Assembly: GCF_001695855.1 (NCBI RefSeq)
Contig: NZ_MBSS01000007.1
Location: forward strand, 62,001 to 126,000
Length of the DNA stretch: 64,000 nucleotides
Source: Ensifer sp. LC163
GTDB taxonomy: Bacteria; Pseudomonadota; Alphaproteobacteria; Rhizobiales; Rhizobiaceae
Direction: 5' to 3'
Shown: positions 16,506 through 43,473 of the stretch, piece after piece
Layout of the letters: every line of letters begins with the position of its first letter
Numbering within the stretch: the first letter of the stretch is position 1
Notes under the pieces: model-generated
The model's database searches: none
What the model saw: only the letters and a program-made list of their open reading frames with translations
Told to the model about the DNA's origin: nothing
Program-made: the position numbers and the translations under genes

Positions 16506-17091
16506 TCAGTGTTCGTCGGGCAAGGGATCCGGAAACAGCATCTCCGCATAGATGCCGGGCGTGGAATCGGGGATCTCTATGGCGCCCACCGCGCGCCGGT
16601 AGAATTCGGCAGGGCCGACGCCGCCGATGATGGCGTAACCATACAGCGCCGCGCGTCAAATATGACGCGCAAAGGACGCTGTAACGCTTTATACCTGCTG
16701 CATAATTCCTTAAATCGACTCCGATTTAAGGAATTATGCAGTAGCCCGCATTGCGCATCGCCGTCAGGCTCTCGCGCAAGAGCGCCTCGCCGATCCCTCG
16801 CCCGCGCATGGCCTCATCGACACCGGTCGGCCCGAAGAAGCCGAGCGCGGTGACATCGTGGCAGGCAAAGCCGACGATGCGATCCTGAAACACCGCGATG
16901 TGCATGCGTGTCGGCGTCGAGGCGAAGGCGGCCTCCGCCTCGCCCGCCCAGCCGGAGCCGAACGTCTGCTCGATCCAGGGAACGACGCGCCTGCGTTCGG
17001 GCGCCATCGCGCGGTGAATGCCGATGCCGTCCGCAAGCGGCGATCTGGGCTGTGCCGGCAGGGCATAAAGGCGAACGAGCATGTCTGTCAT
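16506..17091 (-). pseudogene. GNAT family acetyltransferase gene interrupted by a 98-bp palindromic element
   Basis: The N-terminal ~115 codons run from ATG 17091 (MTDMLVRLYALP) through a GNAT core with acetyl-CoA loop MRGRGIGEALL. They then enter the element and hit a stop (TAA, 16726-16728) after AGYCIIP. On the far side of the element, 16506-16641 encodes the missing C-terminus in the GNAT style: YAIIGGVGPAEFYRRAVGA, ending LPDEH-stop. Removing the element (16644-16741) and one TA restores ...NAGYGYAIIGG... in a single frame. The intact gene would encode about 161 residues. The truncated product lacks the last strands of the fold and is probably inactive. Confidence 0.85.
16644..16741 (+). 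mobile_element. TA-flanked palindromic mini-element, copy A (MITE-like, inside GNAT gene)
   Basis: A 98-bp unit with a GC-rich palindromic half (GCGCCGCGCGTC ... GACGCGC AAAGGACGCTGTAACGC) and an AT-rich palindromic half (CTGCATAATTCCTTAAATCG ... CGATTTAAGGAATTATGCAG). It is flanked by TA at 16642-16643 and 16742-16743. It shares length, modules and flanks with four further units in the window. It has no coding capacity, so it would need a transposase supplied elsewhere. Confidence 0.82.
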
Positions 17092-17234
17092 CGCAGACTC
17101 CTTCCGCGTCCGGGTCTCATGTCTCTACGGACGAATTTACCCCATGCGCCGCCGGCGCGAAAACGCGGGGCGCATGCTTTCTCCGTCCCCAAACTTCGCT
17201 TGCCATCAAACCGGCTCGGCGGTAAATCTCTACC

Positions 17235-17338
17235 CGCTCTAACGGGGTGCCTTCCGACCGCATGGCGGCCGAAGGCTGAGAGGCGTTGAACGCCAACCCG
17301 CGGAACCTGATCCGGCTCATACCGGCGGAGGGATTAGA
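17235..17338 (+). promoter_or_regulatory. TPP (thi-box) riboswitch
   Basis: The leader of thiBPQ carries the conserved TPP aptamer blocks in order: ACGGGGTGCC (from 17242), GGCTGAGAGG (17274-17283), ACCCGCGGAACCTGATCCGG (17296-17315) and CATACCGGCGGAGGGATTAG (17318-17337). The aptamer ends ~60 bp before the thiB ATG, leaving room for an expression platform that could mask the AGGGAG ribosome site. Binding of thiamine diphosphate is expected to shut off the importer. Confidence 0.95.
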
Positions 17339-17399
17339 CGCGATCGGATCGATACGCCCTTTTCCCATGCAACATCATTATTAGGGAGAGGTGCCTGCC

Positions 17400-18428
17400 A
17401 TGTCCAGTTCATCGCAACTGAAGTTCCTTAGCCGGCTAGCGCTTGCCGCGACTGCGAGCCTTGTGTTCGCGGCCAATGCCGTCGCTGCGGAAAAGACGCT
17501 GACCGTCTACACCTATGAAAGCTTCATCACCGAATGGGGCCCGGGTGCCAAGGTCGCTGAAGCCTTTGAAAAGACCTGCGAATGCAAGGTCACCTATGTC
17601 GGCGTCGCCGATGGCGTCGAGTTGCTGACCCGCCTCAAGCTCGAAGGCGCGGCCTCCAAGGCCGACATCGTGCTCGGCCTCGACACCAATCTCGTCGCCG
17701 AGGCCAAGGCCACCGGCTTCTTCGCGCCGCACGGTATCGAAGCAGCAGGCGTCAAGGTGCCCGGCAACTTCTCCGACGACACCTTCCTCCCCTATGACTA
17801 CGGCCATTTCGCCGTCGTCTATGATAGCCAGGTTTTGAAGACGCCGCCGAAGAGCCTCAAGGATCTGGTCGAGGGCGACCCGTCGCAGAAGATCGTCATC
17901 GAGGATCCGCGCACCTCGACGCCGGGTCTCGGTCTGCTTCTGTGGGTCAAGGCCGTCTATGGCGATGAGGCGGGTGCCGCCTGGGCCAAGCTCAAGGGCC
18001 GTGTGCTGACCGTGACGCCGGGCTGGTCGGAAGCCTATGGCCTGTTCACCAAGGGCGAGGCGCCGATGGTGCTCTCCTATACGACGTCGCCCGCCTACCA
18101 CATGGTGGCGGAAAACACCGATCGCTACCAGGCAGCCGCCTTTTCGGAAGGTCACTACATCCAGATCGAAGTCGCCGGCATGACCAAGAGCGCCAAGGAG
18201 CCGGAGCTTGCCAAGCAATTTCTCGCCTTCATGACCGGTCCGGAGTTCCAGTCAATCATTCCGACCACCAACTGGATGATGCCGGTCGCAGCGACCAAGG
18301 AACCCCTGCCCGACGCTTTCGGCAAGCTGGTCAATCCGGAGAAGACCTTCCTGCTGCCGTCGGAAGAGGTCGCGGCAAACCGCAAGGCCTGGATCGACGA
18401 ATGGCTCGCCGCCATGAGCAAGAACTGA
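17400..18428 (+). CDS. thiB: thiamine ABC transporter substrate-binding protein
   Basis: A 342-residue periplasmic protein that captures thiamine and its phosphates for ThiPQ. The signal peptide is residues 1-29 (cleavage after AVAA). The mature start [19 protein letters not shown] is typical of ThiB. A Cys pair (KTCECK) probably forms a disulfide. Conserved regions include [10 protein letters not shown] and TTNWMMPV. The ATG at 17400 has AGGGAG eleven bases upstream; the in-frame GTG at 17391 is too close to that site. It is the first gene of thiBPQ, preceded by a TPP riboswitch, with thiP starting 7 bp after its stop. Confidence 0.93.
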
Positions 18429-18435
18429 GACCCGT

Positions 18436-20064
18436 TTGTTCGCGCCGGCCGAAAACAGGATCACCATCACCGCCGGGGCCGTGGGCCTCGGCGGTATCCT
18501 GCTTTTTGTCGGCCTCGCAATTGCAGCGCTTCTGCTCCAGAGCGGAGATTTTGGCAACGGCGTCCTGTTCGATGCCTATATCTGGCGGGTGACGCGCTTC
18601 ACCTTGCTGCAGGCGAGCCTTTCGACGCTGCTTTCGGTTGCTCTGGCCATTCCGGTCGCGCGGGCACTCGCGCGCCGGACCGCCTTTCCCGGCCGCGTCT
18701 GGGTGCTACGGATCATGGCCCTGCCGCTCGGTCTGCCGGTGCTGGTCGGCGCACTCGGGCTGATCGAGATCTGGGGCCGGCAGGGCGTGCTCAACACCGC
18801 CCTTGCAGAGCTCGGGCTGCAGCAGCCCGTGAGCATCTATGGCCTCTTCGGCATCCTGCTTGCCCATGTCTTCTTCAACATGCCGCTTGTCGCGCGCCTT
18901 TTCCTCGCCGGCCTTGAGCGGATACCCTCGGAATATTGGAGAACCGCCGCCAATCTGGGCATGCCGCCCGGCGCACTCTTCCGCTTTGTCGAATGGCCGG
19001 TCCTTCGTGGATTGTTGCCGGGGGCAGCCGGGCTCGTCTTCATGCTCTGCGCCACCAGCTTCACCCTCGTGCTGACGCTCGGCGGCGGGCCTGCCGCCAG
19101 CACCATCGAGGTCGCGATCTACCAGGCGCTGCGCTTCGATTTCGATCCACCCCGGGCGATCGCTCTGTCCGCCCTGCAGATCGTCATGACCGGAGCCCTG
19201 CTCCTGGCACTGGCCCGTGTCGCGACCGAACCCGCGCAAAGCGCGACCACAGGCCGTGCCTCCAGACGCTACGATGCACGAACCGGCCTCTCCCGTGCAT
19301 CCGATGCCGGCTGGATCCTGTTCTCGCTGCTCTTTATCGGGGCGCCGCTGATGGCCGTCCTCGGCTCGGGCCTGCGTGCGGACCTGGTGAAGCTTGCGGG
19401 CGACCCGAGCGTGCATCGTGCCCTCATCACCAGCATCGTCATCGCCGTCCTCTCGGCACTCCTTTGCGTCGGCGTTGCCGCCGCGATGATCCGCGCCGCA
19501 GGTACTGTTGTGGCGCGTCGCCACGCCCCGACCTTGGCCAGGGCTTTTGCCAGCACTGTCACCGCCAGCACCTCGCTGGTGCTGCTAGTGCCGCCGGTCG
19601 TGCTTGGGGCGGGATGGTTCCTGCTTCTGCGCCCCTTTGGCGATGTCGCGCGTTTCGCCCCGGCCATCGTCGTCGCCATCAACGCGCTGATGGCGCTGCC
19701 CTTCGTGCACCGGATCCTGGCCCCGGCGATGGCAACGCATGCCGCCCGCACCGACCGGCTGACCGCGAGCCTTGGCATCCATGGCTTGCATCGCCTGCGA
19801 TGGATCGACCTGCCGCCGCTCAGGAAACCCTTGCTGATGGCGTTCTCCTTCGCCATGGCGCTGTCGCTCGGCGACCTTGGTGCCGTGGCGCTGTTCGGTT
19901 CGCAGGACATGGTCACGCTTCCGTGGCTGCTCTACAGCCGGATGGGCAGTTATCGCACCACGGATGCAGCCGGACTGGCGCTCTTCTTGGGCCTGCTCTG
20001 CCTGATCTTCACCATGCTCGGCACGGCCGGCGACAGGCGCTTGCCGGAAGGACGAAAGACATGA
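18436..20064 (+). CDS. thiP: thiamine ABC transporter permease
   Basis: A 542-residue inner-membrane protein made of two fused permease halves, with about twelve hydrophobic segments, as usual for ThiP. Each half carries the EAA-type cytoplasmic loop that contacts the ATPase: one around YWRTAANLGMPPGALFR (residues ~170-190) and one around RLTASLGIHGLHRLRW (~440-460). The start is TTG (18436), 7 bp after thiB; no ATG fits the conserved N-terminus. The 3' end overlaps thiQ in an ATGA junction. It is controlled with thiB and thiQ by the upstream TPP riboswitch. Confidence 0.92.
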   Translation: MFAPAENRITITAGAVGLGGILLFVGLAIAALLLQSGDFGNGVLFDAYIWRVTRFTLLQASLSTLLSVALAIPVARALARRTAFPGRVWVLRIMALPLGLPVLVGALGLIEIWGRQGVLNTALAELGLQQPVSIYGLFGILLAHVFFNMPLVARLFLAGLERIPSEYWRTAANLGMPPGALFRFVEWPVLRGLLPGAAGLVFMLCATSFTLVLTLGGGPAASTIEVAIYQALRFDFDPPRAIALSALQIVMTGALLLALARVATEPAQSATTGRASRRYDARTGLSRASDAGWILFSLLFIGAPLMAVLGSGLRADLVKLAGDPSVHRALITSIVIAVLSALLCVGVAAAMIRAAGTVVARRHAPTLARAFASTVTASTSLVLLVPPVVLGAGWFLLLRPFGDVARFAPAIVVAINALMALPFVHRILAPAMATHAARTDRLTASLGIHGLHRLRWIDLPPLRKPLLMAFSFAMALSLGDLGAVALFGSQDMVTLPWLLYSRMGSYRTTDAAGLALFLGLLCLIFTMLGTAGDRRLPEGRKT

Positions 20065-20777
20065 ATTCCCAGGCGGCCGTGGAGCTCGTTGGCGTCGATA
20101 TCCGTTACGACACCACGGCGCTTCATTTCGATTGCACCATCGAGCCAGGCGGCATCGTCGCGGTTGCCGGCGCGTCCGGATCCGGAAAGTCGACGCTGTT
20201 TCACGTCATCGCCGGCTTCGAGGAGCCGGACCGGGGAGAGGTTCGCATTCTCGGCAAGACGATGGCAGGCCGGGCGCCGGCAGAACGGCCCGTTTCCGTG
20301 GTCTTTCAGGACAACAACCTGTTTGCGCATCTCGACGTCGCCACCAATGTCGGCTTCGGTATCAGCTCCTCGCTTCGCCTGTCGGTCGCTGATCGCGCAC
20401 GAATAGACGACGCCCTTGACCGCGTAGGGCTCGACGGTTTCGGCACGCGCCTGCCACCGACGTTGTCCGGCGGCGAACGCCAGCGTGTGGCACTGGCGCG
20501 CGCCCTGGTGCGGCACCGCCCACTGCTGCTGCTGGATGAACCTTTTGCCGCACTCGATCCCGGCATGAGGGCCGGCATGCGCGCATTGCTGCAAGACCTG
20601 CATGATGAGGAGAACAACACGATCCTGATGATCACGCACCATCCCGATGACGTGAGGGCACTGGCCGATAGCGTGCTTTTTCTGGACCAGGGGCGTATCA
20701 TCGCCCATGACCCGGTCGAGCGCTTTCTCGAACGACGCGACGTGGCGGCCATCAACCGCTTTCTCGGCAACGAGTGA
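20061..20777 (+). CDS. thiQ: thiamine ABC transporter ATP-binding protein
   Basis: A 238-residue ATPase that powers ThiBP. Walker A is GASGSGKST (37-45), the Q-loop is VFQDNNLFAHL, the signature is LSGGERQRVALARAL, Walker B is LLLDEPFAALDP and the switch is ITHHPDD. The start is fixed by the ATGA overlap with thiP, and the length is typical for ThiQ. No obvious terminator follows; the next 295 bp up to the M48 protease gene show no gene and only a weak hairpin at 20979-20999 (GCCGGAT/ATCCGGC) without a T tract. Confidence 0.93.
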   Translation: MNSQAAVELVGVDIRYDTTALHFDCTIEPGGIVAVAGASGSGKSTLFHVIAGFEEPDRGEVRILGKTMAGRAPAERPVSVVFQDNNLFAHLDVATNVGFGISSSLRLSVADRARIDDALDRVGLDGFGTRLPPTLSGGERQRVALARALVRHRPLLLLDEPFAALDPGMRAGMRALLQDLHDEENNTILMITHHPDDVRALADSVLFLDQGRIIAHDPVERFLERRDVAAINRFLGNE

Positions 20778-21072
20778 TGCGGCGTGGAATCTTACCACCT
20801 GCAGCACTTCGCCACAATTTGACCGCCGCGCCATGCGACGCGCGGATTATCCGGCCGGCGCAACGCGAATATTCGCGCATCCGTTGCTGTGATACCACGG
20901 GGCAACTATTTCTACCGGGGTAAACTAGGCAGGTGGCGCTGAAATCAGATACAGCAAGACTCGGGCTGGAATACTCACGCCGGATCGGACGTATCCGGCT
21001 GAAAAAGTAAGACTTTCAACGCCGCCGCAGCGCCTATGGCTGGCCGGCGTTGGACGGGAAACGGGCTGAGGC

Positions 21073-22584
21073 ATGGAAAGTCATACAGTCAGAAACGACC
21101 GGTTCCCGCCCAAACGCGGACGCATCCGGACACGTGCTGTGGTTGCATTGCTTGCGACGGCGCTGCTTTCCGCCTGCCAGTCGGTGATCGAGCAGACCTA
21201 CGAGCCGACCGTATCACCGTCCTCCAATCCGCAGATCGTCGATGAAGTCCAGAAGAACGACCCCCGTGCCCAGCTCGGCGCGCGCGAACACCCGCGCATC
21301 GTCGCCAGTTACGGTGGCGAGTACAAGGACGCAAAGACGGAGCGGCTGGTGGCGCGCATCGCCGGTGCGCTGACGGCCGTCTCGGAGAACCCGCAGCAGT
21401 CCTACCGCATCACCATCCTCAATTCCCCGGCGATCAACGCCTTTGCGCTGCCCGGCGGCTATCTCTACGTCACCCGCGGCCTGCTGGCGCTTGCCAATGA
21501 CGCGTCCGAGGTTGCGGCCGTGCTGTCGCACGAAATGGCGCACGTCACCGCCAACCATGGCATCGAGCGCCAGCAACGCGAGGAAGCGGAAGTCATCGCC
21601 AGCCGTGTCGTCTCCGAGGTGCTTTCCTCGGATCTCGCCGGCAAGCAGGCACTGGCGCGCGGCAAGCTGCGTCTGGCCGCCTTCTCCCGCAACCAGGAGC
21701 TCCAGGCCGACGTCATCGGCGTGCGCATGCTCGGCGAAGCCGGCTACGACCCCTATGCAGCGGCGCGCTTCCTCGATTCCATGGCCGCCTATAGCCGCTT
21801 CTCGGCGGTTGATCCGGAAGCCGACCAGAGCCTCGACTTCCTGTCGAGCCACCCGAACGCCCCGCAACGCGTCGATCTCGCGCGCCGGCACGCGCGTGCG
21901 TTTGGCGCCGAAGGCACCAGCGGCGACCGCGGTCGCGACTATTATCTCGCCGGCATCGATGGGCTGCTCTATGGCGACAGCCCACAGGAAGGCTATGTCC
22001 GCGGCCAGACCTTCATGCACGGCCAGCTCGGCATCCGGTTCGACGTGCCGACCGGCTTCCAGATCGACAACAAGGCGGAAGCGGTTCTGGCAACGGGGCC
22101 CGGCGACGTGGCGATCCGCTTCGACGGCATCGCCGATACGGCCCGCAAGAGCCTGACGGATTACATCGCCAGCGGCTGGGTGACCGGCCTGCAGCCCGAC
22201 ACCATCCGCCCGACCAGCGTCAACGGCCTTGAGGCCGCGACCGCACGCGCCTCCGCCGATCGCTGGGATTTCGACGTCACCGTCGTGCGCATCGACAACC
22301 GCATCTACCGATTCCTGACCGCCGTTCCAAAGGGATCGCGCACGCTGGAGCCGACGGCCAACCAGCTGCGCGCGTCGTTCCGCAAGATGACACCAGTCGA
22401 AGCACAGTCGCTGAAGCCGCTGCGCATCCGCGTCGCCGTCGTCAAGCCCGGAGAGACGATTGCCACGCTGTCGGCCCGGATGATGGGTACCGACCGCAAG
22501 CTCGATCTGTTCCGGCTGATCAACGCCATGCAGGTCACCTCAACCATCAAGCCGGGCGACCGGGTCAAGATCATTTCCGAGTAA
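21073..22584 (+). CDS. M48 family metalloprotease, lipoprotein
   Basis: A 503-residue exported zinc protease. A basic N-terminus precedes a lipobox LLSAC with Cys35, predicting a lipid-anchored periplasmic protein. The HExxH zinc motif is His153-Glu154-Met-Ala-His157 (LSHEMAHVTANHG), and a downstream NQELQADVIGVRML helix supplies the third ligand Glu. The C-terminal ~55 residues (VAVVKPGETIATLSARM ... INAMQVTSTIKPGDRVKI) look like a LysM-type wall-binding module, suggesting envelope quality control like BepA. An element of the TA-flanked family begins 8 bp after the stop. The activity is predicted; the substrate is unknown. Confidence 0.87.
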   Translation: MESHTVRNDRFPPKRGRIRTRAVVALLATALLSACQSVIEQTYEPTVSPSSNPQIVDEVQKNDPRAQLGAREHPRIVASYGGEYKDAKTERLVARIAGALTAVSENPQQSYRITILNSPAINAFALPGGYLYVTRGLLALANDASEVAAVLSHEMAHVTANHGIERQQREEAEVIASRVVSEVLSSDLAGKQALARGKLRLAAFSRNQELQADVIGVRMLGEAGYDPYAAARFLDSMAAYSRFSAVDPEADQSLDFLSSHPNAPQRVDLARRHARAFGAEGTSGDRGRDYYLAGIDGLLYGDSPQEGYVRGQTFMHGQLGIRFDVPTGFQIDNKAEAVLATGPGDVAIRFDGIADTARKSLTDYIASGWVTGLQPDTIRPTSVNGLEAATARASADRWDFDVTVVRIDNRIYRFLTAVPKGSRTLEPTANQLRASFRKMTPVEAQSLKPLRIRVAVVKPGETIATLSARMMGTDRKLDLFRLINAMQVTSTIKPGDRVKIISE

Positions 22585-22592
22585 ACGCCCAA

Positions 22593-22693
22593 CGGCGCCG
22601 CGCGTCTTATCAGACGCGCAAAGGTCGCTGTAGCACTTTGAATTGCTGCATGTTTTTGTCCATAAATCGGGTAGGACTTAAGGAAACATGCGG
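22593..22693 (+). mobile_element. TA-flanked palindromic mini-element, copy B (degenerate)
   Basis: A 101-bp unit of the same family as 16644-16741, in the same orientation: GCGCCGCGCGTC ... AGACGCGCAAAGG-CGCTGTAGCACTTTG, then the AT-rich half CTGCATG ... CATGCGG. The right flank is TA (22694-22695); the left flank is AA instead of TA. The second palindrome is the most diverged of the five. It lies 8 bp downstream of the M48 protease stop. Confidence 0.75.
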
Positions 22694-22712
22694 TAGTCCG
22701 ATGCCGTCTTGC

Positions 22713-22733
22713 ACCAACCTGCGCTGATATTAT
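22713..22733. repeat. 21-bp intergenic repeat, copy 2
   Basis: Identical to 12109-12129 over 21 bases. This copy lies 19 bp beyond the element at 22593-22693 and 144 bp downstream of the 3' end of rpoH. Confidence 0.7.
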
Positions 22734-22876
22734 GTCTTTGCATCGAAGATGCGAATGCGTTTGCCGTCCATTGAGCACGTTGACGCGTTCCGTCCTCGGC
22801 CCGCTTGCGCAACCACGCCGACGCTTGCTCCCCGTCCGTTGACGGAAGATCGCTTTGCACTTCTCCTGGAAATGCC

Positions 22877-23743
22877 TCAGTGCGCCATGGATGTCAGTGC
22901 CGGGGCCTTGGTGGCGAGTGCAGCCCGCAGCTTTTCGAGCGCGCGCGTCTCGATCTGGCGGACCCGCTCCTTGGAGATGCCGAGGTCGAGCCCCAGCTCC
23001 TCCAGCGTTGCACCTTCCTCCGACAGACGTCGCGCGCGGATAATCCTCATCTCGCGCTCGGTCAGTGCACCCATGGCGTCACGGAGCCAGATGCGGGCAC
23101 GCTCGCCGTCGATCATGTCGCTCACCTGTTCGTCAGGGAGCGGCGCATCGCTTGCGAGGAAGTCGAGCCGCTCTCCACCATCGGAATCCGCGCCGCCCAC
23201 CGGTGCCTGCAGCGAGGTGTCGCTGCCCGACAGGCGCGCATCCATGGTCTGGACGTCGGCAATGCTGACCCCGAGGGCAGCCGCAATTTCCTCATGCATA
23301 GCCTGCGATGTCAGTTGGCGGTCGCCTTGTGCAAGCCGCGCGCGCAGTCGGCGAAGATTGAAGAACAGCGCCTTCTGGGCCGAGCTGGTGCCGCCGCGAA
23401 CGATCGACCAGTTGCGCAGCACATAGTCCTGCATCGAGGCGCGGATCCACCATGTCGCGTAGGTCGAGAAGCGCACCTCACGGCTGGGCTCGAAGCGTGC
23501 GGCGGCCTCAAGCAGGCCTATATGCCCCTCCTGGACGAGATCGCCCATCGGCAGGCCGAAATTGCGGAACTTTGCCGCCATGGAAATGACCAGCCGCATA
23601 TGCGACATGGCGATCTTGTTGCGGGCATCCTGATCGTGATCGTTTCGCCAGGCCTTTGCCAATGCATGCTCTTCTTCACGCTCGAGATAAGGCGCCTCCA
23701 TCGCAATCTTGATCATGCGCCTGTCTGCTGTGAGAGTCCTCAT
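22877..23743 (-). CDS. rpoH2: RNA polymerase sigma-32 type factor (RpoH2-like)
   Basis: A 288-residue sigma factor of the heat-shock group. Region 2 contains the RpoH-typical HMRLVISMAAKF, LVQEGHIGLLEAAARFEP and RFSTYATWWIRASMQDYVLRN-type core. The RpoH-box region QKALFFNLRRLR follows, and region 4 holds the helix-turn-helix TLEELGLDLGISKERVRQIE. The ATG at 23743 (MRTLTADRRMIKIAM) matches rhizobial RpoH2; an ATG four codons upstream (23755) is possible, and a longer extension to 23881 is Pro/Ala-rich and unconserved. Rhizobia carry two RpoH paralogues. The H2 assignment rests on the N-terminal pattern and is moderately sure. Confidence 0.87.
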   Translation of the reverse strand: MRTLTADRRMIKIAMEAPYLEREEEHALAKAWRNDHDQDARNKIAMSHMRLVISMAAKFRNFGLPMGDLVQEGHIGLLEAAARFEPSREVRFSTYATWWIRASMQDYVLRNWSIVRGGTSSAQKALFFNLRRLRARLAQGDRQLTSQAMHEEIAAALGVSIADVQTMDARLSGSDTSLQAPVGGADSDGGERLDFLASDAPLPDEQVSDMIDGERARIWLRDAMGALTEREMRIIRARRLSEEGATLEELGLDLGISKERVRQIETRALEKLRAALATKAPALTSMAH

Positions 23744-24091
23744 CGATCGCTCCATGGCGGGCGCCTGGACGCCGCTAACGGGTGAAGTCCAAGGGCCGGA
23801 CGGAGGAACCCGACCGGCGCCGGCGGCGGCTGGTGCGACGACACCGAAGCTTGAAGAAACGGTGCGGCGCCCTACTTCCAAACTACGAAGCTGAATTCTG
23901 ACAGAAGATCACAGGACCCAGATCGCCCCGGCAGGAAAGCGGCGCATCCCTGCCGGCCTTGATAAATGCGCTTCCGCGCAAAAAGTTCCCTCGCCCGGAC
24001 GAGAAAGCTCAAAACAAGCACGCTCAAAACGAGAAAGCCCGGCGCGATGGCCGGGCTTGGTCTTGTCGTGATGGGGAAGGACTGGCGCTCT
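23744..24091. other. 348-bp spacer between rpoH and carD
   Basis: No gene is seen. The left part should hold the rpoH promoter (minus strand), but no clear sigma motif could be assigned by eye. The right part (24035-24058) holds the carD terminator. Confidence 0.6.
24035..24058 (-). terminator. Rho-independent terminator after carD
   Basis: A 9-bp perfect stem (AAGCCCGGC/GCCGGGCTT) with a short loop. On the minus strand it is followed by TTTCTCGTTTT. It lies 33 bp after the carD stop. Confidence 0.85.
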
Positions 24092-26027: not shown

Positions 26028-26034
26028 GGCGTTC

Positions 26035-33354: not shown

Positions 33355-33363
33355 GCTTACTTA

Positions 33364-33462
33364 CCGCACAATTCCCCAGATCGGATTCGATTTAGGGACA
33401 AAATTGTGCAGCAGATCAAAGTGTTACTGCGACCCTTGCGCGCCTGAACAGGCGCGGCGCTG
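33364..33462 (-). mobile_element. TA-flanked palindromic mini-element, copy C
   Basis: A 99-bp unit, inverted relative to copy A, flanked by TA at 33362-33363 and 33463-33464. The AT-rich half (CCGCACAATTCCCC ... ACAAAATTGTGCAG) comes first, then AAAGTGTTACTGCGACCCTT and the GC-rich half (GCGCGCCTGAACAGGCGCGGCGC). It lies upstream of the small membrane-protein gene. Confidence 0.8.
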
Positions 33463-33520
33463 TAATGCCAACCTGGGTTGGTATTAGCCGTCCTCTCCGT
33501 CGAGAAGATGTCAGGCATGC

Positions 33521-34567: not shown

Positions 34568-34642
34568 GATTGGATCTCCCTATGCATCCTGCCGTAACCC
34601 TTAGGCCACGGCGAGCATCAGGACCAATGAATAGACGTCATC

Positions 34643-35416: not shown

Positions 35417-35562
35417 CCGTTTCTCTTAGTGCATGGGCTGGCAAAGTTGAACGGGCTTTCTGGCAAAAGGCAAGGCGCTCACAGGTCTGTCCTCGACAAA
35501 GCGCACCGCCGCGACACGAAAGCCCGTTGAAAGCGCCTTTCGCGCATGTCAAAGAGCGCTGC

Positions 35563-36477
35563 ATGAGACAGGAAGCACCGACCTTCGAGACCCAATTGAA
35601 ACGCAACGCGCATGCGATCGAGACGCTGCTCGGACGTCTGCTGGGTTTGAGCATCGAGCCCGACGAGATCGGGCGACCGGAAAACCTGCTCGGCGCGATG
35701 CGCCATGGCGTGCTCAACGGCGGCAAGCGGCTGCGCCCGTTTCTGGTGATCGAATGCGCCAGCCTGCTGGGCGGAAGCTTCGATGCAGCACTTCGTGTTG
35801 GTGCTGCGCTCGAATGCGTCCACTGCTACTCACTGGTCCATGACGACCTGCCGGCGATGGACGACGACGACATCCGGCGCGGCCAGCCGACCGTGCACAA
35901 GGCCTTCGATGAGGCCACGGCCATTCTGGCCGGCGACAGCCTGCTGACCTTCGCCTTCGACATCATCGCATCGCCGGAAACGCCGCTTGCCGACGCACAG
36001 AAGACCGCACTCGTGCTTGCGCTGGCGCGCGCTGCCGGCCATGGCGGCATGGCAGGCGGACAGGCGCTCGACCTTGCGGCAGAAAAATCCACTCCTGATG
36101 AAGCTGGCATCGTCACTCTGCAGGCGATGAAGACCGGCGCGCTTCTGCGCTTTGCCTGCGAGGCGGGCGCCATCGTTGCCGGCGCCGGCGCGATCGACCG
36201 CCAGCGTCTGCGCAGCTTCGGCGAAAAGATCGGCCTGGCCTTCCAACTCGCCGACGACCTGCTCGACCTCACGGCCGACGCCGAGACCATGGGCAAGGCA
36301 ACCGGCAAGGATGCCGCGCGCGGCAAGGGCACGCTCGTCGCCCTCCACGGACAGGCCTGGGCCGAAAGCCGGCTGGAACAGTTGGTGGCAGAGGCCGAAG
36401 CTCTGCTCGAACCCTATGGCGAACGTTCGTCTATCCTTGCCGAAACCGCCCGCTTCATCGCCAATCGCAGGAATTGA
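35563..36477 (+). CDS. ispA: polyprenyl (farnesyl diphosphate) synthase
   Basis: A 304-residue trans-prenyltransferase that elongates DMAPP/IPP to farnesyl diphosphate. The first aspartate-rich motif DDLPAMDDDD lies in a HCYSLVHDDLPAMDDDDIRR-type block and the second is DDLLD, with GGKRLRPFL and GQALDLAAE also present. Short-chain product specificity is suggested by similarity to IspA. The ATG at 35563 (MRQEAPTFE) is chosen; an in-frame TTG at 35527 adds twelve unconserved residues. It is followed by hisC after 3 bp, so the two genes are co-transcribed although their pathways differ. Confidence 0.9.
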   Translation: MRQEAPTFETQLKRNAHAIETLLGRLLGLSIEPDEIGRPENLLGAMRHGVLNGGKRLRPFLVIECASLLGGSFDAALRVGAALECVHCYSLVHDDLPAMDDDDIRRGQPTVHKAFDEATAILAGDSLLTFAFDIIASPETPLADAQKTALVLALARAAGHGGMAGGQALDLAAEKSTPDEAGIVTLQAMKTGALLRFACEAGAIVAGAGAIDRQRLRSFGEKIGLAFQLADDLLDLTADAETMGKATGKDAARGKGTLVALHGQAWAESRLEQLVAEAEALLEPYGERSSILAETARFIANRRN

Positions 36478-36480
36478 ACC

Positions 36481-37536
36481 GTGAGCAAATACTGGTCGCC
36501 CATCGTTTCGACGCTCAAGCCCTATGTGCCGGGCGAGCAGCCGCGCATCGCCAACCTCGTCAAGCTCAACACCAACGAGAGCCCGTACGGCCCGTCGGAC
36601 AAGGTTCTGAGCGCGATCACCGCGGCGGCCAACGGCGATCTCAGGCTCTACCCCGACCCCTTAGCGCTTCGCCTGCGTGAAACGATCGCCGCCCGTCACG
36701 GGGTCACCGCCGGCGAGGTCTTCGTCGGCAATGGTTCGGACGAGGTTCTCGCCCACATCTTTGCCGGGCTCTTGAAGCACGACGCTCCGCTGCTCTACCC
36801 CGACATTTCCTACAGCTTCTACTCGACTTACGCCCGGCTGTTTGCGATCGACGCCGTCGAAGTGCCGCTCGACGCGCAATTCCGCATCGACCTTGCCGAT
36901 TACGACAGGGCGTGCGGTGCCATCATCCTGCCCAATCCGAATGCACCGACCGGCATCGGCTTGCCGCTTGCCGAAATCGAGCGCCTCGTTGCCGCCCATC
37001 CGGAGCAGCCGGTCGTCATCGACGAGGCCTATATCGACTTCGGCGGCCAGTCGGCGATCGCGCTGGTGCCGAAATACGAGAACCTGCTGGTCGTCCAGAC
37101 CTTCTCCAAGTCCCGTGCGCTCGCCGGCCTGCGCGTCGGCTTCGCCATCGGCCAGCGGCCGCTGATCGAGGCGCTGGAGCGGGTGAAGGACAGCTTCAAC
37201 TCCTACCCGCTTGGCCGCCCGGCCCAGGCCGGAGCGATCGCTGCGATTGAAGACGAGGCCTGGTTCGAAACGACGCGCGAGAAGATCATCGCATCGCGTC
37301 AGCGCCTCACCGGTCAGCTCGCCGAGCGCGGCTTCGAGGTCCTGCCGTCTGAGGCGAATTTCGTTTTCGCCCGCCATTCCGGCCAATCCGGCGAGACGCT
37401 GATGCAGGCGCTTCGCGACCGCGCCGTGCTCGTGCGCCATTTCGCCAAGCCGCGGATCTCCGATTTCCTGCGCATCACCGTCGGCACCGATGCCGAATGC
37501 GCGCGGCTGATCGAGGCGCTCGACGACATTCTATGA
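36481..37536 (+). CDS. hisC: histidinol-phosphate aminotransferase
   Basis: A 351-residue PLP-dependent enzyme of histidine synthesis, converting imidazole-acetol phosphate to histidinol phosphate. The PLP lysine is Lys210 ([14 protein letters not shown]), with PNPNAPTG and DEAYIDF contributing cofactor contacts. The start is GTG at 36481, three bases after the prenyl synthase stop, with AGGAATTGAACC as ribosome site. Rhizobia often have several hisC copies, so this may serve histidine or aromatic amino acid transamination. A TA-flanked mini-element follows 41 bp downstream. Confidence 0.92.
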
Positions 37537-37577
37537 TCCGTGGCTCTGCCACTTGGCCGCGAAAGACCCATTCGCTA

Positions 37578-37674
37578 CTGCATAATTCCTTAAATCGGAA
37601 TCGATTCAAGGAATTATGCAGCAACTCAAAGTGTTACAGCGACCTTTGCGCGTCTAAATAGACGCGCGGCGCTG
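37578..37674 (-). mobile_element. TA-flanked palindromic mini-element, copy D
   Basis: A 97-bp unit, inverted relative to copy A, flanked by TA at 37576-37577 and 37675-37676. The first half is a near-perfect palindrome (CTGCATAATTCCTTAAATCG ... CAAGGAATTATGCAG); then AAAGTGTTACAGCGACCTTT and the second palindrome (GCGCGTCTAAATAGACGCGC). It is the cleanest copy together with A. It lies between hisC and a LysE-type gene. Confidence 0.83.
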
Positions 37675-37708
37675 TAAGGATCCAGCGATCCATGCCGGGG
37701 CCCTGTCC

Positions 37709-38350
37709 ATGTTCGACCTTTCGCCTTACCTCTCGCAACTCGCGGTCGCCTGGACCGCCTATCTGATTGTGACCGCATCGCCGGGCCCGGCCGTGCTTGC
37801 GATCATCACCACCTCGATCAGCCAGGGGCGCAAGGCGGGCCTGGCGCTTGCCTTCGGCGTGCTCTCGGGCAGCTACACCTGGGCGATGCTGACGGCATCC
37901 GGCCTTTCCGCGCTCATCAGCGCCTACGGACAGGTGCTCGTCATCCTGAAGATCGCTGGTGCCTGCTATCTGTTCTGGCTCGCCTACAACGCGCTGCGCG
38001 CCGCCATGCGTGGACAGACGCCACGAGCGGCGATGCCGGGTCAGGCACAGGCCTCGCTGAAGAAGCTCTATCTCAAGGGGCTCGGCATCCACCTGACCAA
38101 TCCCAAGGCCATTTTCTCCTGGATCATGCTGGTCTCGCTCGGCATGCCCGCCGGCGCACCGACTACCGTTACCGCAGCCTTCATCGCCGGCTGCATGGTG
38201 CTCGGTCTCGTGACGTTCTGCGGTTTTGCGATCGTGTTCTCGCTGCCGCCGGTGCACCGCGGCTATCTCAAGTCGCGGCGCGTCATCGAGAGCCTGATGG
38301 CGGGCTTCTTCGCTTTCGCAGGATTGAAATTGCTGACGACGCGGCTCTGA
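37709..38350 (+). CDS. LysE family translocator
   Basis: A 213-residue exporter with about six membrane segments. The diagnostic motif TASPGPAVLAI (residues 22-32) is followed by SISQGRKAGLALAFGVLSG, with KGLGIHLTNPKAIFSW in the middle. Its length equals that of the LysE-type protein at 10012-10653 but the two are clearly different family branches. The substrate is unknown (amino acids or small metabolites). It is the only gene of its unit, convergent with ispG. Confidence 0.87.
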   Translation: MFDLSPYLSQLAVAWTAYLIVTASPGPAVLAIITTSISQGRKAGLALAFGVLSGSYTWAMLTASGLSALISAYGQVLVILKIAGACYLFWLAYNALRAAMRGQTPRAAMPGQAQASLKKLYLKGLGIHLTNPKAIFSWIMLVSLGMPAGAPTTVTAAFIAGCMVLGLVTFCGFAIVFSLPPVHRGYLKSRRVIESLMAGFFAFAGLKLLTTRL

Positions 38351-38409
38351 CCTAGAACGCTTCCGGCTCAAGAAGAATCGCTCTATCTCTTTGTTTTTAC
38401 GCATTTCCT

Positions 38410-38445
38410 GGCGGAAAACCGCTTCGCACTTTTCCTGGAAGCGCT
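38410..38445. repeat. 36-nt dispersed sequence abutting the ispG stop
   Basis: Matches 22841-22876 at 28 of 36 positions; both end exactly at the base before a minus-strand stop codon (ispG here, rpoH there). It contains CTTCGCACTTTTCCTGGAA. From memory, similar 3'-flanking sequences are frequent in rhizobial genomes. Confidence 0.55.
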
Positions 38446-39699
<1,254 letters not shown>

Positions 39700-39889
39700 G
39701 AAGGCCTCTTGGTCCCCCAGGTCACGCCTGTGACCTGGTCTCATCGTTTCTGAGCGGGATGCGGACGGAAAACCGCATAAGCTTTTGCCCGCCCCGCTCC
39801 TGCTTTTCGTCCATCAGGTGGATGAGGAAAGCATCATTGTCAACGGCGACATCATGCCCTGACGGCGATTTGATGGCAGGCGCCCGGCC

Positions 39890-41074
39890 TCAATGCCCTT
39901 TTGCGTGGTCCGCATGCACCGCATGATGGGACAGCAGGAGCACCACGATGAACAGCACCGGCACCGAGGCGAAGATGATCGCAAAGCCGGTGTGCTCGGC
40001 AACAAAGCCGATCAGCGACGGTGCGAACAGCATGCCGGAATAGCCCATGAACGTTGCGACCGAGAGCCCGATGCCCGGCTGCAGGCCTGGCATGTTGCCG
40101 GCGGCCGAAAACGCGATCGGCACCATGTTGGAAATGCCGATGCCGGCAATCGCGAAACCGAGGATGGCGAGATAGGCGTTCGGCGCGAGTCCAGCCAGGA
40201 CCATGCCGACAAGCGCCGTCACCGTGCAGATGCGCAGCGTCCGCTTGGCGCCGAAGCGATCGCGGACATGGTCGCCGGCAAAGCGCATCGTCGCCATGGT
40301 CGCCGAGAAGGCGGCAAAGCCGAAACCCGATAGTTCGACGGTGGCGCCGAGTTCGTTGCGCAGGTAAAGCGCACCCCAGTCGAGCACGGTTCCCTCCGGC
40401 ACCATCGAAAACAACGCCATGATGCCGATCAGCCAGGGAAGCGGCGTCATCGGCAGGCGGAGCTTCTCCTTGGTGGCGGTGGGATGCGGCTTGTCGGCCA
40501 GGATCATCGGCCAGGCGATGGCGATGACGGTGAGGCTGAGCAGCGTCACGACCATGACATGCGGCAGGACGCCGAAGCGCGCCATCAGGAAACCGCCGAT
40601 GCCGGCACCGATCAGGCCACCGAGGCTCCAATAGGCATGGCAGGACGACATGATGGCACGGCGCATCGATTTTTCGACCTCGACCGCATTGGCGTTCATT
40701 GCCACGTCCATGGCGCCGACGAAGCCGCCGAGCAGGAACATGCCGACGGCGGCAGCCCAGACGTTCGGCAGCAGCGTCAAGAGCAAAAGCAGCGGCGACA
40801 GCAGGATGGCCGTAACCTTGACGACCTTCTGCGAGCCGACCCGGGCAATGAAGCCACCGGCGATCGGCATCAGCACCAGCGAGCCGATGCCGAACATCAG
40901 GATGAGCAGGCCGAGCACGCTTTCGCTGATGCCCAGCCGATCCTTGAATTCGGGGATCTTCGGCGCCCAGCTTCCGGTGACGAAACCGTTCATCAGGAAC
41001 AGCAGCGACACGGCGAGCCGGTTGCGGGTCATGTAACCCTGCCGGACGGCGGTGGGAGCGGAACGTTGATCCAT
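39890..41074 (-). CDS. MFS transporter (YbjJ/fucose-permease-like)
   Basis: A 394-residue transporter with about twelve membrane segments. The N-terminal MNGFVTGSWAPKIPEFKDRLG and SESVLGLLILMFGIGSL segments, and VGAMDVAMNANAVEVE in segment 4, are characteristic of the YbjJ-like branch. The ligand is unknown. It lies 30 bp downstream of the VOC-domain gene, which itself overlaps a DeoR regulator, so it is the third gene of that operon. A DeoR regulator plus MFS suggests uptake or efflux of a sugar or sugar-derived compound, by inference only. Confidence 0.83.
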   Translation of the reverse strand: MDQRSAPTAVRQGYMTRNRLAVSLLFLMNGFVTGSWAPKIPEFKDRLGISESVLGLLILMFGIGSLVLMPIAGGFIARVGSQKVVKVTAILLSPLLLLLTLLPNVWAAAVGMFLLGGFVGAMDVAMNANAVEVEKSMRRAIMSSCHAYWSLGGLIGAGIGGFLMARFGVLPHVMVVTLLSLTVIAIAWPMILADKPHPTATKEKLRLPMTPLPWLIGIMALFSMVPEGTVLDWGALYLRNELGATVELSGFGFAAFSATMATMRFAGDHVRDRFGAKRTLRICTVTALVGMVLAGLAPNAYLAILGFAIAGIGISNMVPIAFSAAGNMPGLQPGIGLSVATFMGYSGMLFAPSLIGFVAEHTGFAIIFASVPVLFIVVLLLSHHAVHADHAKGH

Positions 41075-41104
41075 GATTTTGCCTCTATGCCGGAAGCCGC
41101 CGGC

Positions 41105-41491
41105 TCAAATTGTGATTTCGATCAGATTGCCGTCGGGGTCGCGAAGCACCGCCTCATAGAAGCCGTCGCCCGTCCACCGCGCTGGCGATACCAGAATGCC
41201 CTCAGCCTCGGCCCGGGCCGCCATGGCGTCGACCGCCGCTTCGCTGCCGAGCGACAGGGCGACATGCGCCAGGCCCGTGCGCTCGACGCCTTCCGGGTCG
41301 GCCGGAGCCACCCAAGGCCCCTCCATGATTTCGATTGCCGGCCCGTCGCCAAGGGTCAGAAAGCGGGAGCGAAAACCCGGGCGGCGCCGGCTCTCATAGA
41401 CGTCGCCGATGCTGGCGCCGAAAAAATTCGACCAGAAGGATGCAACCGCCTCCAGATCCCTGGTCCAAAGGGCCACATGGGCGATGCTCAT
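41105..41491 (-). CDS. VOC family (glyoxalase/bleomycin resistance) protein
   Basis: A 128-residue protein with two beta-alpha-beta-beta-beta modules of the vicinal oxygen chelate superfamily. The first begins IAHVALWTRDLEAVASFWSNFFG with metal-ligand His5-type residue; the second begins GLAHVALSLGSEAAVD, and the last strand is LRDPDGNLIEI with the conserved Asp-Pro-x-Gly-Asn. Members are glyoxalases, dioxygenases or resistance proteins; the reaction here is unknown. The ATG at 41491 overlaps the DeoR stop (ATGA). Confidence 0.83.
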   Translation of the reverse strand: MSIAHVALWTRDLEAVASFWSNFFGASIGDVYESRRRPGFRSRFLTLGDGPAIEIMEGPWVAPADPEGVERTGLAHVALSLGSEAAVDAMAARAEAEGILVSPARWTGDGFYEAVLRDPDGNLIEITI

Positions 41492-42270
41492 CGTTCGCTT
41501 CCTCCCGCCATGACGACGGTCGTCCCCGACGCCTCGAAGGCGGCGACGTGGTGCGCCGGCGCGTCGGCCTCCAGCACCAGCGTCGTCACCTCGTCGATGC
41601 CGACGATCGCATGGGACGCGGCCGTGCCGAGCTTGTCGTTGGTAACAGCGACGAGCAGGGCGCGGCTGCGCGAGGCAATCAGCCGCTTGAACTCGGCATC
41701 CTCGAAATAGATCGCCGTCAGGCCGGCATCGACATCGGCACCACAGGTGCCGAGGATGCAAAGGTCGGGGCGCAGTTGCTCGATATCCCGCTGCGCCCGC
41801 GCGCCGACTGCGGCGCCGACGGCGCGATTGAGCGGGCCGCCGACAAGGATCAGGTCGATGCCCGGCTTCTCCATCAGGGCGGCAGCGATCAGCGGCGTGT
41901 TGGTAACAATAGTGGCCGTCAGATCCGGCTCGATAAGCTCGGCGATGGCGAGATTGGTCGAGCCGGCATCGAGGAACACCGTGCTACCAGGCGCGATGAA
42001 GCCGACCGAGGCGCGCGCAAGCGCTGCCTTGCGCTCCGGCGCCATGGCCACGCGCTGGCTCAATGTCAGCGAACTCGGCGCGAGCGGCAGCGCGCCGCCA
42101 TAGACCCGTTCGCAGAGGCCCGCTGCCGCCATCTCGCGCAGATCACGCCGGATCGTATCTTCCGAAACCCGGAACTCTGCGGCGAGATCAGCGGCCAGCA
42201 CCCGGCCGTCGGCCTTCAGCCGTTCCTGGATGCGTGTCTTTCGTTCGCGAAGGAGGAGTTCCGTGGACAT
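41488..42270 (-). CDS. DeoR/GlpR family transcriptional regulator
   Basis: A 260-residue regulator. The N-terminal helix-turn-helix (residues ~5-57) has the family signature VLAADLAAEFRVSEDTIRRDL. The C-terminal DeoRC sensor domain contains FLDAGSTNLAIAEL, VTNTPLIA and the LILVGGPLNR block that binds phosphosugars in relatives. It heads an operon with a VOC protein (four-base overlap) and an MFS transporter and probably represses it until a sugar phosphate accumulates. The 273-bp upstream region is shared with a divergent amino-acid importer; no operator could be picked out with confidence. Confidence 0.89.
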   Translation of the reverse strand: MSTELLLRERKTRIQERLKADGRVLAADLAAEFRVSEDTIRRDLREMAAAGLCERVYGGALPLAPSSLTLSQRVAMAPERKAALARASVGFIAPGSTVFLDAGSTNLAIAELIEPDLTATIVTNTPLIAAALMEKPGIDLILVGGPLNRAVGAAVGARAQRDIEQLRPDLCILGTCGADVDAGLTAIYFEDAEFKRLIASRSRALLVAVTNDKLGTAASHAIVGIDEVTTLVLEADAPAHHVAAFEASGTTVVMAGGSER

Positions 42271-42543
42271 TTCGCCAATCGTGCATAAACGTGCATGAAT
42301 CGATGAAAATGTGCATATCGAATTTTGAAAGCGATTTCAACCCGCGATCAGGCACCCCGATCGAAAAGGGCCAGATTTAACGACAGGCGCGCCTTCCGGA
42401 TGAAAATTCTGCCGATCCGGGGAAAAATCTTCATCAAAACGCTCAGGAATTGGAGTTTTATGCGCTCAAGCGACGATTTTTTTGTGCGATTGTCCCCTCA
42501 ATCCGGACGACGGGCCGGAACATGAGAAAGATGGAAAGACACG

Positions 42544-43317
42544 ATGAAACTCCTCCCCACGCTTTTCGCCGCCGCCCTCCTGCAGGTTTCCGCCTTCGCC
42601 CCGGCTGAGGCCGGTGAGAACCTCGACCAGGTCAAGTCCGCGGGCGTTCTGAAGATCGGCACCGAAGGCACCTATGCGCCCTTCACCTACCATGACAAGT
42701 CAGGCGCGCTCGTCGGCTTCGACGTCGAGATCGGCGAGGAAGTAGCCAAGAAGCTGGGCGTCAAGGCCGAGTTCCTGGAAGGCAAGTGGGACGGCCTGAT
42801 CGCCGGCCTCGACGCCAACCGCTACGACGCGGTGATCAACCAGGTCGGCATCACCGAGGAGCGCAAGAAGAAGTACGACTTCTCCGAGCCCTATATCGCC
42901 TCCAAGGCCGTGCTGATCGTCAAGGGCGACGATGCCGAGATCAAGGGCTTTGCCGACCTCAAGGGTAAGAAGTCGGCCCAGTCGCTGACGAGCAACTTCG
43001 GCAAGCTGGCTGAGGCTTCCGGCGCCGAGCTCGTCGGCACCGACGGCTTCGACCAGTCGATCCAGCTGGTTCTGACCGGCCGCGCCGATGCGACCATCAA
43101 CGACAGCCTCTCCTTCCTCGACTTCAAGAAGCAGAAGCCGGACGCCAACGTGAAGATCGCCGCCGAGCAGGCCGACGCCGATTATTCCGGCATCATCATC
43201 CGCAAGGGCGAGCCGGAACTTCTCGACGCCATCAACAAGGCGCTCGCCGACATCAAGGCGGACGGTACCTACGAGAAGATTTCGCAGAAGTACTTCGGCG
43301 CCGACGTCTCGAAGTAA
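42544..43317 (+). CDS. polar amino acid ABC transporter substrate-binding protein
   Basis: A 257-residue periplasmic protein of SBP family 3. The signal peptide is residues 1-23 (cleavage after AEA). The conserved mature start reads VLKIGTEGTYAPFTYHDKSG, then VGFDVEIGEEVAKKLG, VINQVGITEERKKKYDFSEPY and the C-terminal ADGTYEKISQKYFG. Such proteins bind cystine, glutamine or basic amino acids; the exact ligand is uncertain (cystine-like from overall pattern). It is followed by a terminator and a mini-element before the permease gene, which may keep binding protein in excess. Confidence 0.9.
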   Translation: MKLLPTLFAAALLQVSAFAPAEAGENLDQVKSAGVLKIGTEGTYAPFTYHDKSGALVGFDVEIGEEVAKKLGVKAEFLEGKWDGLIAGLDANRYDAVINQVGITEERKKKYDFSEPYIASKAVLIVKGDDAEIKGFADLKGKKSAQSLTSNFGKLAEASGAELVGTDGFDQSIQLVLTGRADATINDSLSFLDFKKQKPDANVKIAAEQADADYSGIIIRKGEPELLDAINKALADIKADGTYEKISQKYFGADVSK

Positions 43318-43332
43318 CATCCGCCTGAGATC

Positions 43333-43359
43333 GAGGCCGGTTTCTCTCCCGGCCTTTCT
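43333..43359 (+). terminator. Terminator-like hairpin after the binding-protein gene
   Basis: A 7-bp perfect stem (AGGCCGG/CCGGCCT), 8-nt loop and TTTCTC tail, 16 bp after the stop. Confidence 0.7.
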
Positions 43360-43364
43360 CGCTA

Positions 43365-43466
43365 TAGCGCGACGCGCCAGACATGACGCGCAAAGGATGC
43401 TGTAACGCTTTAAACTTGCTGCATAATCTCTGCCTTAAATCGATTTCGGTTTAGGGCATTATGCAG
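43365..43466 (+). mobile_element. TA-flanked palindromic mini-element, copy E
   Basis: A 102-bp unit in the same orientation as copy A, flanked by TA at 43363-43364 and 43467-43468: GC-rich half (GCGCGACGCGCCAGACATGACGCGC), AAAGGATGCTGTAACGCTTT, then CTGCATAATCTCTGCCTTAA ... GGGCATTATGCAG. It is inserted between an ABC binding-protein gene and its permease gene. Confidence 0.82.
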
Positions 43467-43473
43467 TATGAAT

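Follow-up and report, generated by a model that had tools for sequence, protein, structure and literature searches.

Five unit copies of one repeat family, u1 to u5, lie in the window (the whole 64-kb stretch of DNA analysed). They measure 101-106 bp with the flanking TA counted, and the first of them interrupts a GNAT acetyltransferase gene towards its 3' end. The features are as follows.

16506-16641, minus strand: 3' end of the GNAT gene, displaced by u1; roughly 44 codons plus stop, its end taken from the reading frame of the joined flanks
16642-16743, plus strand: u1 and its flanking TA, made up of a left hairpin (16642-16683), a linker (16684-16695) and a right hairpin (16696-16743)
16726-17091, minus strand: truncated GNAT acetyltransferase ORF of 121 codons, of which the element supplies the final four
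22591-22695, plus strand: u2, with AA on the left and TA on the right, directly 3' of the stop codon of ORF 21073-22584
33362-33464, minus strand: u3 with flanking TA
37576-37676, minus strand: u4, flanked by TA and lying about 40 bp 3' of the hisC-like ORF 36481-37536
43363-43468, plus strand: u5 with flanking TA, the right-hand TA overlapping the ATG of ORF 43468-44208

Architecture of the repeat units

A sequence-only reading of the window had located five units at these places, and nhmmer matched all of them there (E = 2e-33 to 4e-24, with a model that had those units among its input). Its account of a GC-rich palindrome, a linker and an AT-rich palindrome, occurring in both orientations, agrees with what we see in all five, as does its observation of TA on both sides of four units, u2 with AA on its left being the exception. 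The two modules it described are present, but the left palindrome is longer than it claimed, as it is closed by TACAGCG...CGCTGTA, and the left module is therefore itself bounded by TA. The units end in CAGCGCCGCG and CTGCATAATTCC; the 5' and 3' ends have TAC(A/T)GC alone in common and are otherwise unrelated. Not counting the flanking TA, copies of the family span 97-106 bp; the consensus has 38 predicted base pairs. The hairpins are conserved through paired changes: 159 alignment cells were altered on both sides of a pair, vs. 52 in shuffles (maximum 66), and 36 extra pair types were found, vs. 9 in shuffles (maximum 15).

Copy number and genomic context

Using a model rebuilt from copies in the genome, which gave no matches in a reversed-sequence control, we identified 131 full-length copies in 2.05 Mb, a sample that covers 31% of this Ensifer/Sinorhizobium-like genome (contig C1 whole and parts of C7, C12 and C23); an early scan, in which 40 of 378 candidates were scored, is not taken as a genome total. 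Seven of the 131 copies are identical to another copy elsewhere. The high local density suggested by the sequence-only reading turned out to be the usual density of the genome: because 131 copies per 2.05 Mb predict 4.1 full-length copies per 64 kb, the five units seen are normal (P = 0.39), and the 26.8-kb span that holds them, picked post hoc, gives P = 0.03. Family counts were run over 151 genomes, with the best places of the 151 listed; core matches numbered 316 in the own genome vs. 20 in a near relative. Such a difference suggests that copy number may shift quickly between lineages, through amplification in one, loss in the other, or both, and this pair of genomes is a natural system in which to seek the mobilising enzyme.

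Gene context, assessed with a crude codon-usage gene caller, placed 2 of the 131 copies inside predicted genes. Among the 129 intergenic copies, gaps between convergent genes held 49, vs. 26 expected by length (P = 5e-6), gaps between divergent genes held 14, vs. 27 expected (P = 0.003), and gaps between tandem genes held 66, vs. 76 expected (P = 0.09). The convergent excess and divergent deficit among surviving copies would fit selection against insertions into promoters and genes.

Insertion at TA within YTAR

The flanks were compared in the 96 rows, drawn from 183 non-overlapping matches, that align to both ends of a model from which TA was omitted; these rows exclude decayed or truncated copies. 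TA was present on the left in 88 and on the right in 76 of these complete copies, and on both sides in 69 of the 96; 27 of the 96 are without TA on at least one side. Position -3 is a pyrimidine in 94/96 copies and position +3 a purine in 91/96, with no more than 0.19 bits of preference further out. The target of the repeat is a symmetric YTAR.

Empty orthologous sites, which had been proposed as a check on mobility, were found in relatives at three of the units. At u1, all four relatives carry a single TA, and the reading frame of the GNAT gene is open through the site in each of them; u1 truncates the acetyltransferase gene in the present genome. The u3 site has a single TA in one relative (L033), together with an indel, and cannot be aligned in L034. 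At u5, L033 and L034 have empty sites, both with one extra base beside the TA, and L035 has no element there either, although the alignment does not extend into its upstream DNA. No clean empty site was seen for u2, where the DNA of two relatives (G001 and G002) is too diverged; this is an older copy, seemingly common to Sinorhizobium glycinis (G003), and the same gap in G077 contains a unit at a different distance from the stop codon. For u4, the intergenic DNA of four relatives resists alignment; the unit that L038 carries some 480 bp beyond its hisC-like gene is too distant to be equated with this site. In the Rhizobium leguminosarum complex and near species, two further sites showed the element present in some genomes and absent from others, among the matches listed (40 of 111 records in one search and 40 of 183 in the other). 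Of the empty alleles compared there, 3/3 at one site read TG and 2/2 at the other lacked a base.

These comparisons show insertion at the TA within YTAR, with TA left on both sides. Given the empty sites, the TA flanks and the truncation of a gene by u1, we conclude that the units are mobile and have moved recently.

Search for the mobilising enzyme and alternative explanations

The reading that we favour, with good confidence, is that the units are copies of a short, non-autonomous mobile element that inserts at TA in YTAR; the element is very probably RIME, with the two-arm architecture of CIR. A transposase acting in trans would recognise the hairpin ends and join the element into double-stranded TA; this enzyme would most likely be a TA-duplicating DDE transposase, either IS630/Tc1-like or IS5/IS427-like.

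The sequence-only reading had called the units MITEs of the IS630 type, and part of that call stands: they are small, have TA flanks and empty sites, are non-coding as judged by size, and are distinct from REP sequences of the Y1/RAYT kind. A classical MITE would have arisen from an IS630/Tc1-mariner element by internal deletion, and an IS630 transposase would move it by way of the terminal inverted repeats that the two have in common, an origin that we regard as possible but doubtful. The TA duplication and the CTAG-like target are consistent with it, as are IS630-type matches, of which there are three in the own genome and 43 across five of the six relatives searched. However, MITEs are defined, in the part of the source that bears on them, by terminal inverted repeats of 15-30 bp (PMC3733652), whereas the two ends of the units share TAC(A/T)GC alone. 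In G077, the ends of the IS630 copies are TA-GTGTCCTGAT or TA-GTCATCTG, and these copies occupy CTAG at 7/7 distinct resolved sites, whereas the repeat units accept YTAR. The transposase with matching ends, for which a search had been suggested, did not appear: unit ends bracketed 0/33 of the IS630 loci examined (3/3 own and 30/43 from relatives; each locus being the match ± 1.5 kb, as for all transposase loci scanned, and some cut by contig ends), and the IS630 genes on contig C37 lack inverted repeats matching the units. With two unlike hairpin ends, and no examined IS630 or IS5-type locus carrying them, the units are not classical MITEs.

A second candidate partner, which we entertain tentatively, is an IS5-family (IS427/IS711-like) transposase, a type with a known YTAR target in which TA is duplicated. 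IS711 is a member of the IS5 family. For this element, a YTAR target with duplication of TA, and Bru-RS palindromes as hot spots, are reported in the relevant part of PMC2266754, and an IS5-like element of the own genome sits, as read by eye, in CTA...TAG. That element lies near a partial unit (L247) but has unrelated ends of its own, GGGTCAGGAC, and unit ends bracketed 0/36 of the PF01609 loci (6/6 own and 30/44 from relatives; several, e.g. L321 and L330, are cut by contig ends). Nor did left and right modules occur at IS-sized spacing, as in an autonomous parent, anywhere in the 2.05 Mb, except for one spacing of 1.35 kb, in which the left module is part of a degenerate full copy. Since matches in the draft genome (on C7, C19 and C41) and several transposase loci meet contig ends, the assembly could be concealing an autonomous parent.

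It is very improbable that the units are instead non-mobile, that is, fixed structural or regulatory elements such as terminators or mRNA stabilisers that spread by duplication or recombination. Enrichment between convergent genes and conserved hairpins would suit such elements, and some copies may have a host role, but the single-TA empty sites, the unrelated flanks, the insertion inside a gene and the large differences in copy number refute immobility as the whole explanation.

The ends of IS200/IS605 elements carry subterminal hairpins and are unlike each other. The two subterminal hairpins and unlike ends of the units resemble these, but a REP/RAYT or IS200/IS605-like origin, in which a Y1 tyrosine transposase would act on single-stranded hairpin ends, is highly unlikely and mostly refuted, because Y1 (PF01797) was found in 0/8 genomes, five of them high-copy, by a search positive in 5/14 control genomes, and because the target is symmetric, with a pyrimidine at -3 and a purine at +3; the units are thus not REP sequences of that kind, in line with the sequence-only reading, which had set them apart from generic REPs.

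Relationship to named repeat families

Whether the family had a name was left undecided by that reading; judged from locus position and described architecture, it very probably does, as RIME, with the architecture of CIR. Osteras, Stanley and Finan reportedly introduced RIME (RIME1), Rhizobium-specific intergenic mosaic elements, in 1995, under a title said to name a two-component locus; RIME is said to be 108 bp long with two large palindromes. Compared by description, the units are alike in their Rhizobiaceae host, their length of about 100 bp and their two palindromes. In S. glycinis (L257, 4019-4123), an intact copy lies between chvI and chvG in the chvI-chvG/pckA two-component locus, just after chvI (E = 3e-30), and a degenerate copy is in the chvI-chvG gap of L256 (E = 3e-11); the gap has no copy in the own genome, L255, L253, L254 or L258, so that 2/7 loci are positive. 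Those parts of the RIME literature that were seen make no mention of TA duplication, YTAR or empty sites, unlike what we find for these units.

Identity with the S. meliloti repeats Sm-4 or Sm-5 was rejected, as none of nine pSymB coordinates from PMC2780559 (five Sm-4, one Sm-5 and three unnamed, from a table of 12) overlapped a unit; the 165 kb of pSymB examined do contain five diverged units (E = 2e-18 to 1e-4), at other positions. Among Rfam RNA families, the TPP riboswitch alone matched in the window at gathering threshold.

CIR (Chen and Shapiro 2003), from Caulobacter, Brucella and other alphaproteobacteria, is described in the relevant part of a 2007 review (PMC2229807) as about 110 bp long, with two long hairpin arms and a linker, GANTC in one loop, TA at both termini and no terminal inverted repeat, and as strictly intergenic. 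By description, the units share the two arms with linker, the size, the terminal TA and the lack of a 5'-3' inverted repeat. GANTC occurs at the right-hand loop in 59 of the 131 copies; any GANTC is found in 65 copies, vs. 42 expected from base shuffling, and the elements hold 5.3 such sites per kb, vs. 1.05 per kb across the genome sample. CIR is reported absent inside genes, whereas u1 is inside the GNAT gene, and the same part of the review marks the target duplication of CIR with '?' and its mobility mechanism as needing more information, whereas the duplication is TA in these units. RUP, Correia/NEMIS and ERIC share small size, terminal TA and a target-site duplication with the units, but have terminal inverted repeats (PMC2229807, Table 1); according to the passages seen there, the stem of bacterial repeats other than CIR comes from pairing of the 5' and 3' ends, in place of which the units have two independent arms.

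By description, the units also resemble a further set of palindromes of about 100 bp, tied to the YTAR-targeting IS711. These are the repeats Bru-RS1 and Bru-RS2 of Brucella. RIME repeats have reportedly been catalogued since 1995 and CIR since 2003; the single-TA empty sites, the YTAR target and the gene-breaking insertion make the question of their mobility testable. RIME, CIR and perhaps Bru-RS might, as a tentative proposal, form one alphaproteobacterial transposable class, the ends of which would be two unlike hairpins, and which would be inserted into YTAR, with TA duplication, by a structure-reading transposase, and would still be moving.

Structure, copy number and target of the repeat family

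All five two-hairpin units claimed by the sequence-only reading were found at the places proposed for them, in both orientations (coordinates include the flanking dinucleotides):

u1, 16642-16743, forward strand, two-hairpin repeat unit
u2, 22591-22695, forward strand, two-hairpin repeat unit
u3, 33362-33464, reverse strand, two-hairpin repeat unit
u4, 37576-37676, reverse strand, two-hairpin repeat unit
u5, 43363-43468, forward strand, two-hairpin repeat unit

The source is an Ensifer/Sinorhizobium relative, since the nearest named records, by identity of a hisC-like protein, are 'Rhizobiales bacterium AFS045263' (L033, 93%), Ensifer adhaerens ST2 (L034, 87%) and Sinorhizobium glycinis (L035, 82%). 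In its draft genome (6.52 Mb, 68 contigs), a 19-letter core pattern with at most two mismatches had 316 matches (reversed control, 26). A profile search of 2.05 Mb (31% of the genome) returned 187 non-overlapping matches, of which 131 were full-length, and the same profile had zero matches in the reversed 2.05-Mb sequence; the density, 64 full-length copies per Mb, extrapolates to a total of ~417.

The consensus folds as two independent arms, with the linker left unpaired. On the left, TACAGCG-CC-GCGCGTC...GACGCGC-AAAGG-CGCTGTA forms an arm that is itself bounded by TA; the arm on the right, TGCTGCATAATT...AATTATGCAGTA, frequently contains a 4-base bulge. TAC(A/T)GC is all that the two element ends have in common. 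Among the 131 copies, 91.7% of stem cells were Watson-Crick vs. 86.9% in shuffles (maximum 87.4), and sliding the stem partners by one or two columns lowered this value to 20-22%. Stem cells changed on both sides numbered 159 vs. 52 in shuffles (maximum 66), and further pair types 36 vs. 9 (maximum 15), these changes being counted over related copies and hence not independent events. Several column pairs switched jointly (A-T to T-A at 17/22 and 64/97, and A-T to G-C at 63/98). The hairpin structure is kept across copies, and we infer a role for the hairpins. At contig C1 300045-300147 of the same genome, a left module and a right module are adjacent and oppositely oriented, as would result from inversion of one arm.

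To avoid circularity, TA was removed from both model ends before target analysis, which covered the 96 of 183 profile matches that reach both ends. TA, 1.6% of dinucleotides in the sampled sequence, adjoined 88 of the 96 on the left, 76 on the right and 69 on both sides, the latter falling from 22 of 25 among top-scoring copies to 10 of 21 among the lowest-scoring. C or T preceded the left dinucleotide in 94 of 96 copies and G or A followed the right one in 91; beyond these bases, information was at most 0.19 bits per position. These counts define a symmetric target, YTAR, whose outer base pairs, in the better-scoring half of both-TA copies, were most frequently C-G (13/35), followed by T-A and T-G (7 each).

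Empty sites and genomic context

Empty orthologous sites, the check proposed for mobility, were recovered: the u1 site is uninterrupted with one TA in all four relatives compared (G001, G002, G077 and G003, S. glycinis), for example GATGGCGTAGCCGTAGCCCGCATTGCG, compared with GATGGCGTAACCA-TA-element-TA-GCCCGCATTGCG in the window. At the u5 site, L033 and L034 are without the element, and a single TA with an additional base next to it precedes the ATG; L035 also lacks the element, and its upstream DNA does not align. The u3 unit is absent from L033, where a single TA remains on the left side and the right side carries another indel; L034 is not alignable here. The u4 site was not alignable in relatives, and u2 is an older copy; S. 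glycinis seems to carry one at the matching place. The reverse case seems to exist at an uninterrupted CTAG of the window, where G001 has a copy with a decayed left end and a poorly aligning left flank. Records from the Rhizobium leguminosarum complex and near species differ at two plasmid sites, some carrying a unit and others not (flank identity 87-98%). The empty alleles examined have TG (3/3) at one site and one base missing (2/2) at the other, so that either these targets have since altered or the element ends are less than fully clean. Taken with the target analysis, the empty sites demonstrate that the family is mobile.

The u1 unit interrupts a GNAT acetyltransferase gene, and the window ORF stops four codons inside the unit, losing ~44 of 161 codons. 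In all four relatives the reading frame continues across the site; here it is cut, which argues that the insertion is young. In PMC2229807 and PMC10969869, CIR elements (two-arm repeats of Caulobacter, Brucella and other alphaproteobacteria) are described as strictly intergenic. With a rough gene caller, which scored u1 as intergenic since its gene is already cut, 2 of 131 copies lay inside predicted genes. For the 129 intergenic copies, expectations from intergenic length were 26 in convergent, 76 in tandem and 27 in divergent gaps; the observed numbers were 49 (P = 5e-6), 66 (P = 0.09) and 14 (P = 0.003), respectively. The convergent excess and divergent deficit are consistent with counter-selection of copies in promoters and genes; some copies might conceivably serve as terminators. 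The ATG that starts the ORF at 43468-44208 overlaps the right-hand TA of u5 (T-ATG), and AGGG in the u5 end lies, by eye, ~11 bases upstream of that ATG; given these positions, u5 may be the present source of the ribosome-binding region for this ORF. A TPP riboswitch (RF00059, 17233-17350) lies upstream of ORFs from 17391 on that, by eye, resemble a thiamine ABC transporter.

Candidate mobilising enzyme

The PF01797 (Y1/RAYT) search had zero matches in all eight genomes searched, which is evidence against REP-type mobilisation. Element ends bracketed none of the IS630 (PF13358) loci covered (3/3 own loci and 30 of 43 matches from six relatives), nor any of the PF01609 (IS5-type) loci covered (6/6 own loci and 30 of 44 matches from five relatives), several loci being cut by contig ends. 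Complete or partial units lie near some transposase loci (L247, L289, L293, L299, L302, L304, L311, L319, L321, L329 and L330); in L247 (own contig C23), the IS5-like element at ~1415-2255 has ends GGGTCAGGAC, occupies a CTA...TAG site and neighbours a degenerate partial unit.

The IS630 copies of congener G077, with ends TA-GTGTCCTGAT or TA-GTCATCTG, are inserted in CTAG at seven of seven distinct resolved sites (eight loci, two sharing one site). Within this set (L286-L306), a related repeat with the left end TAGAGCGCC (nhmmer E 5e-4 to 1e-7) adjoins the IS through its terminal TA at three of the seven sites, and at a fourth (L296) the first bases of such a repeat are visible by eye. This IS630 may prefer the ends of these repeats, as is reported for IS711, an IS5-family element, and the Brucella palindromic repeats Bru-RS. 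The reported target of IS711 is YTAR, with TA duplicated (PMC2266754). Because no locus covered is bracketed, the G077 IS630 copies are in CTAG and YTAR is reported for IS711, the mobilising enzyme that we infer could be IS630-like, IS5-like or something else.

Distribution and relation to known repeats

Among 151 Rhizobiaceae genomes, the core count clearly exceeded the reversed control in few, most being at background. Besides the 316 matches in the own genome, counts were high in G077 (150), in G051 (233) and G144 (202) of one other genus, and in G113 (140) of another, with small excesses in a few further genomes (e.g., 28 vs. 6 in G098). S. glycinis had 115 (control 21), G002 39 (control 36), and G001, with 86-91% identity to the window over most aligned blocks, 20 (control 34). 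Of the 306 plasmid records with a match, 298 were from Rhizobium, Sinorhizobium or Agrobacterium. Other genera (G104, G149, G113) repeatedly contain the related cores GCACAAAGGACGCTCTAAC and GCACAAAGGACGCTGTAAC, which look like sister subfamilies.

According to its title, the study of Osteras et al. 1995 located RIMEs (Rhizobium-specific intergenic mosaic elements) in an essential two-component system of Rhizobium species. An intact unit occupies the chvI-chvG gap of S. glycinis, and L256 has a decayed one there (two of seven loci examined). The own chvI-chvG gap is without a unit, and a full unit is present downstream of both pckA and the ORF after it (L032 7987-8092, contig C11). A probable identity with RIME1 is argued from place, size and architecture. 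Identity with Sm-4 or Sm-5 was rejected, as none of nine S. meliloti pSymB repeats tested (Sm-4, Sm-5 or unnamed) overlapped a unit; five diverged units lie elsewhere within 165 kb.

Searches of the open PMC literature, from which subscription papers are mostly absent, turned up no mention of a duplicated target or of empty sites for either RIME or CIR. The CIR plan, as described there, likewise comprises two arms, a linker and TA termini without TIR; the GANTC loop site of CIR is present in only 59 of 131 copies here. The units very probably represent an already known repeat family, for which the target and its duplication, the disruption of a gene by insertion and the contrast in copy number look new.
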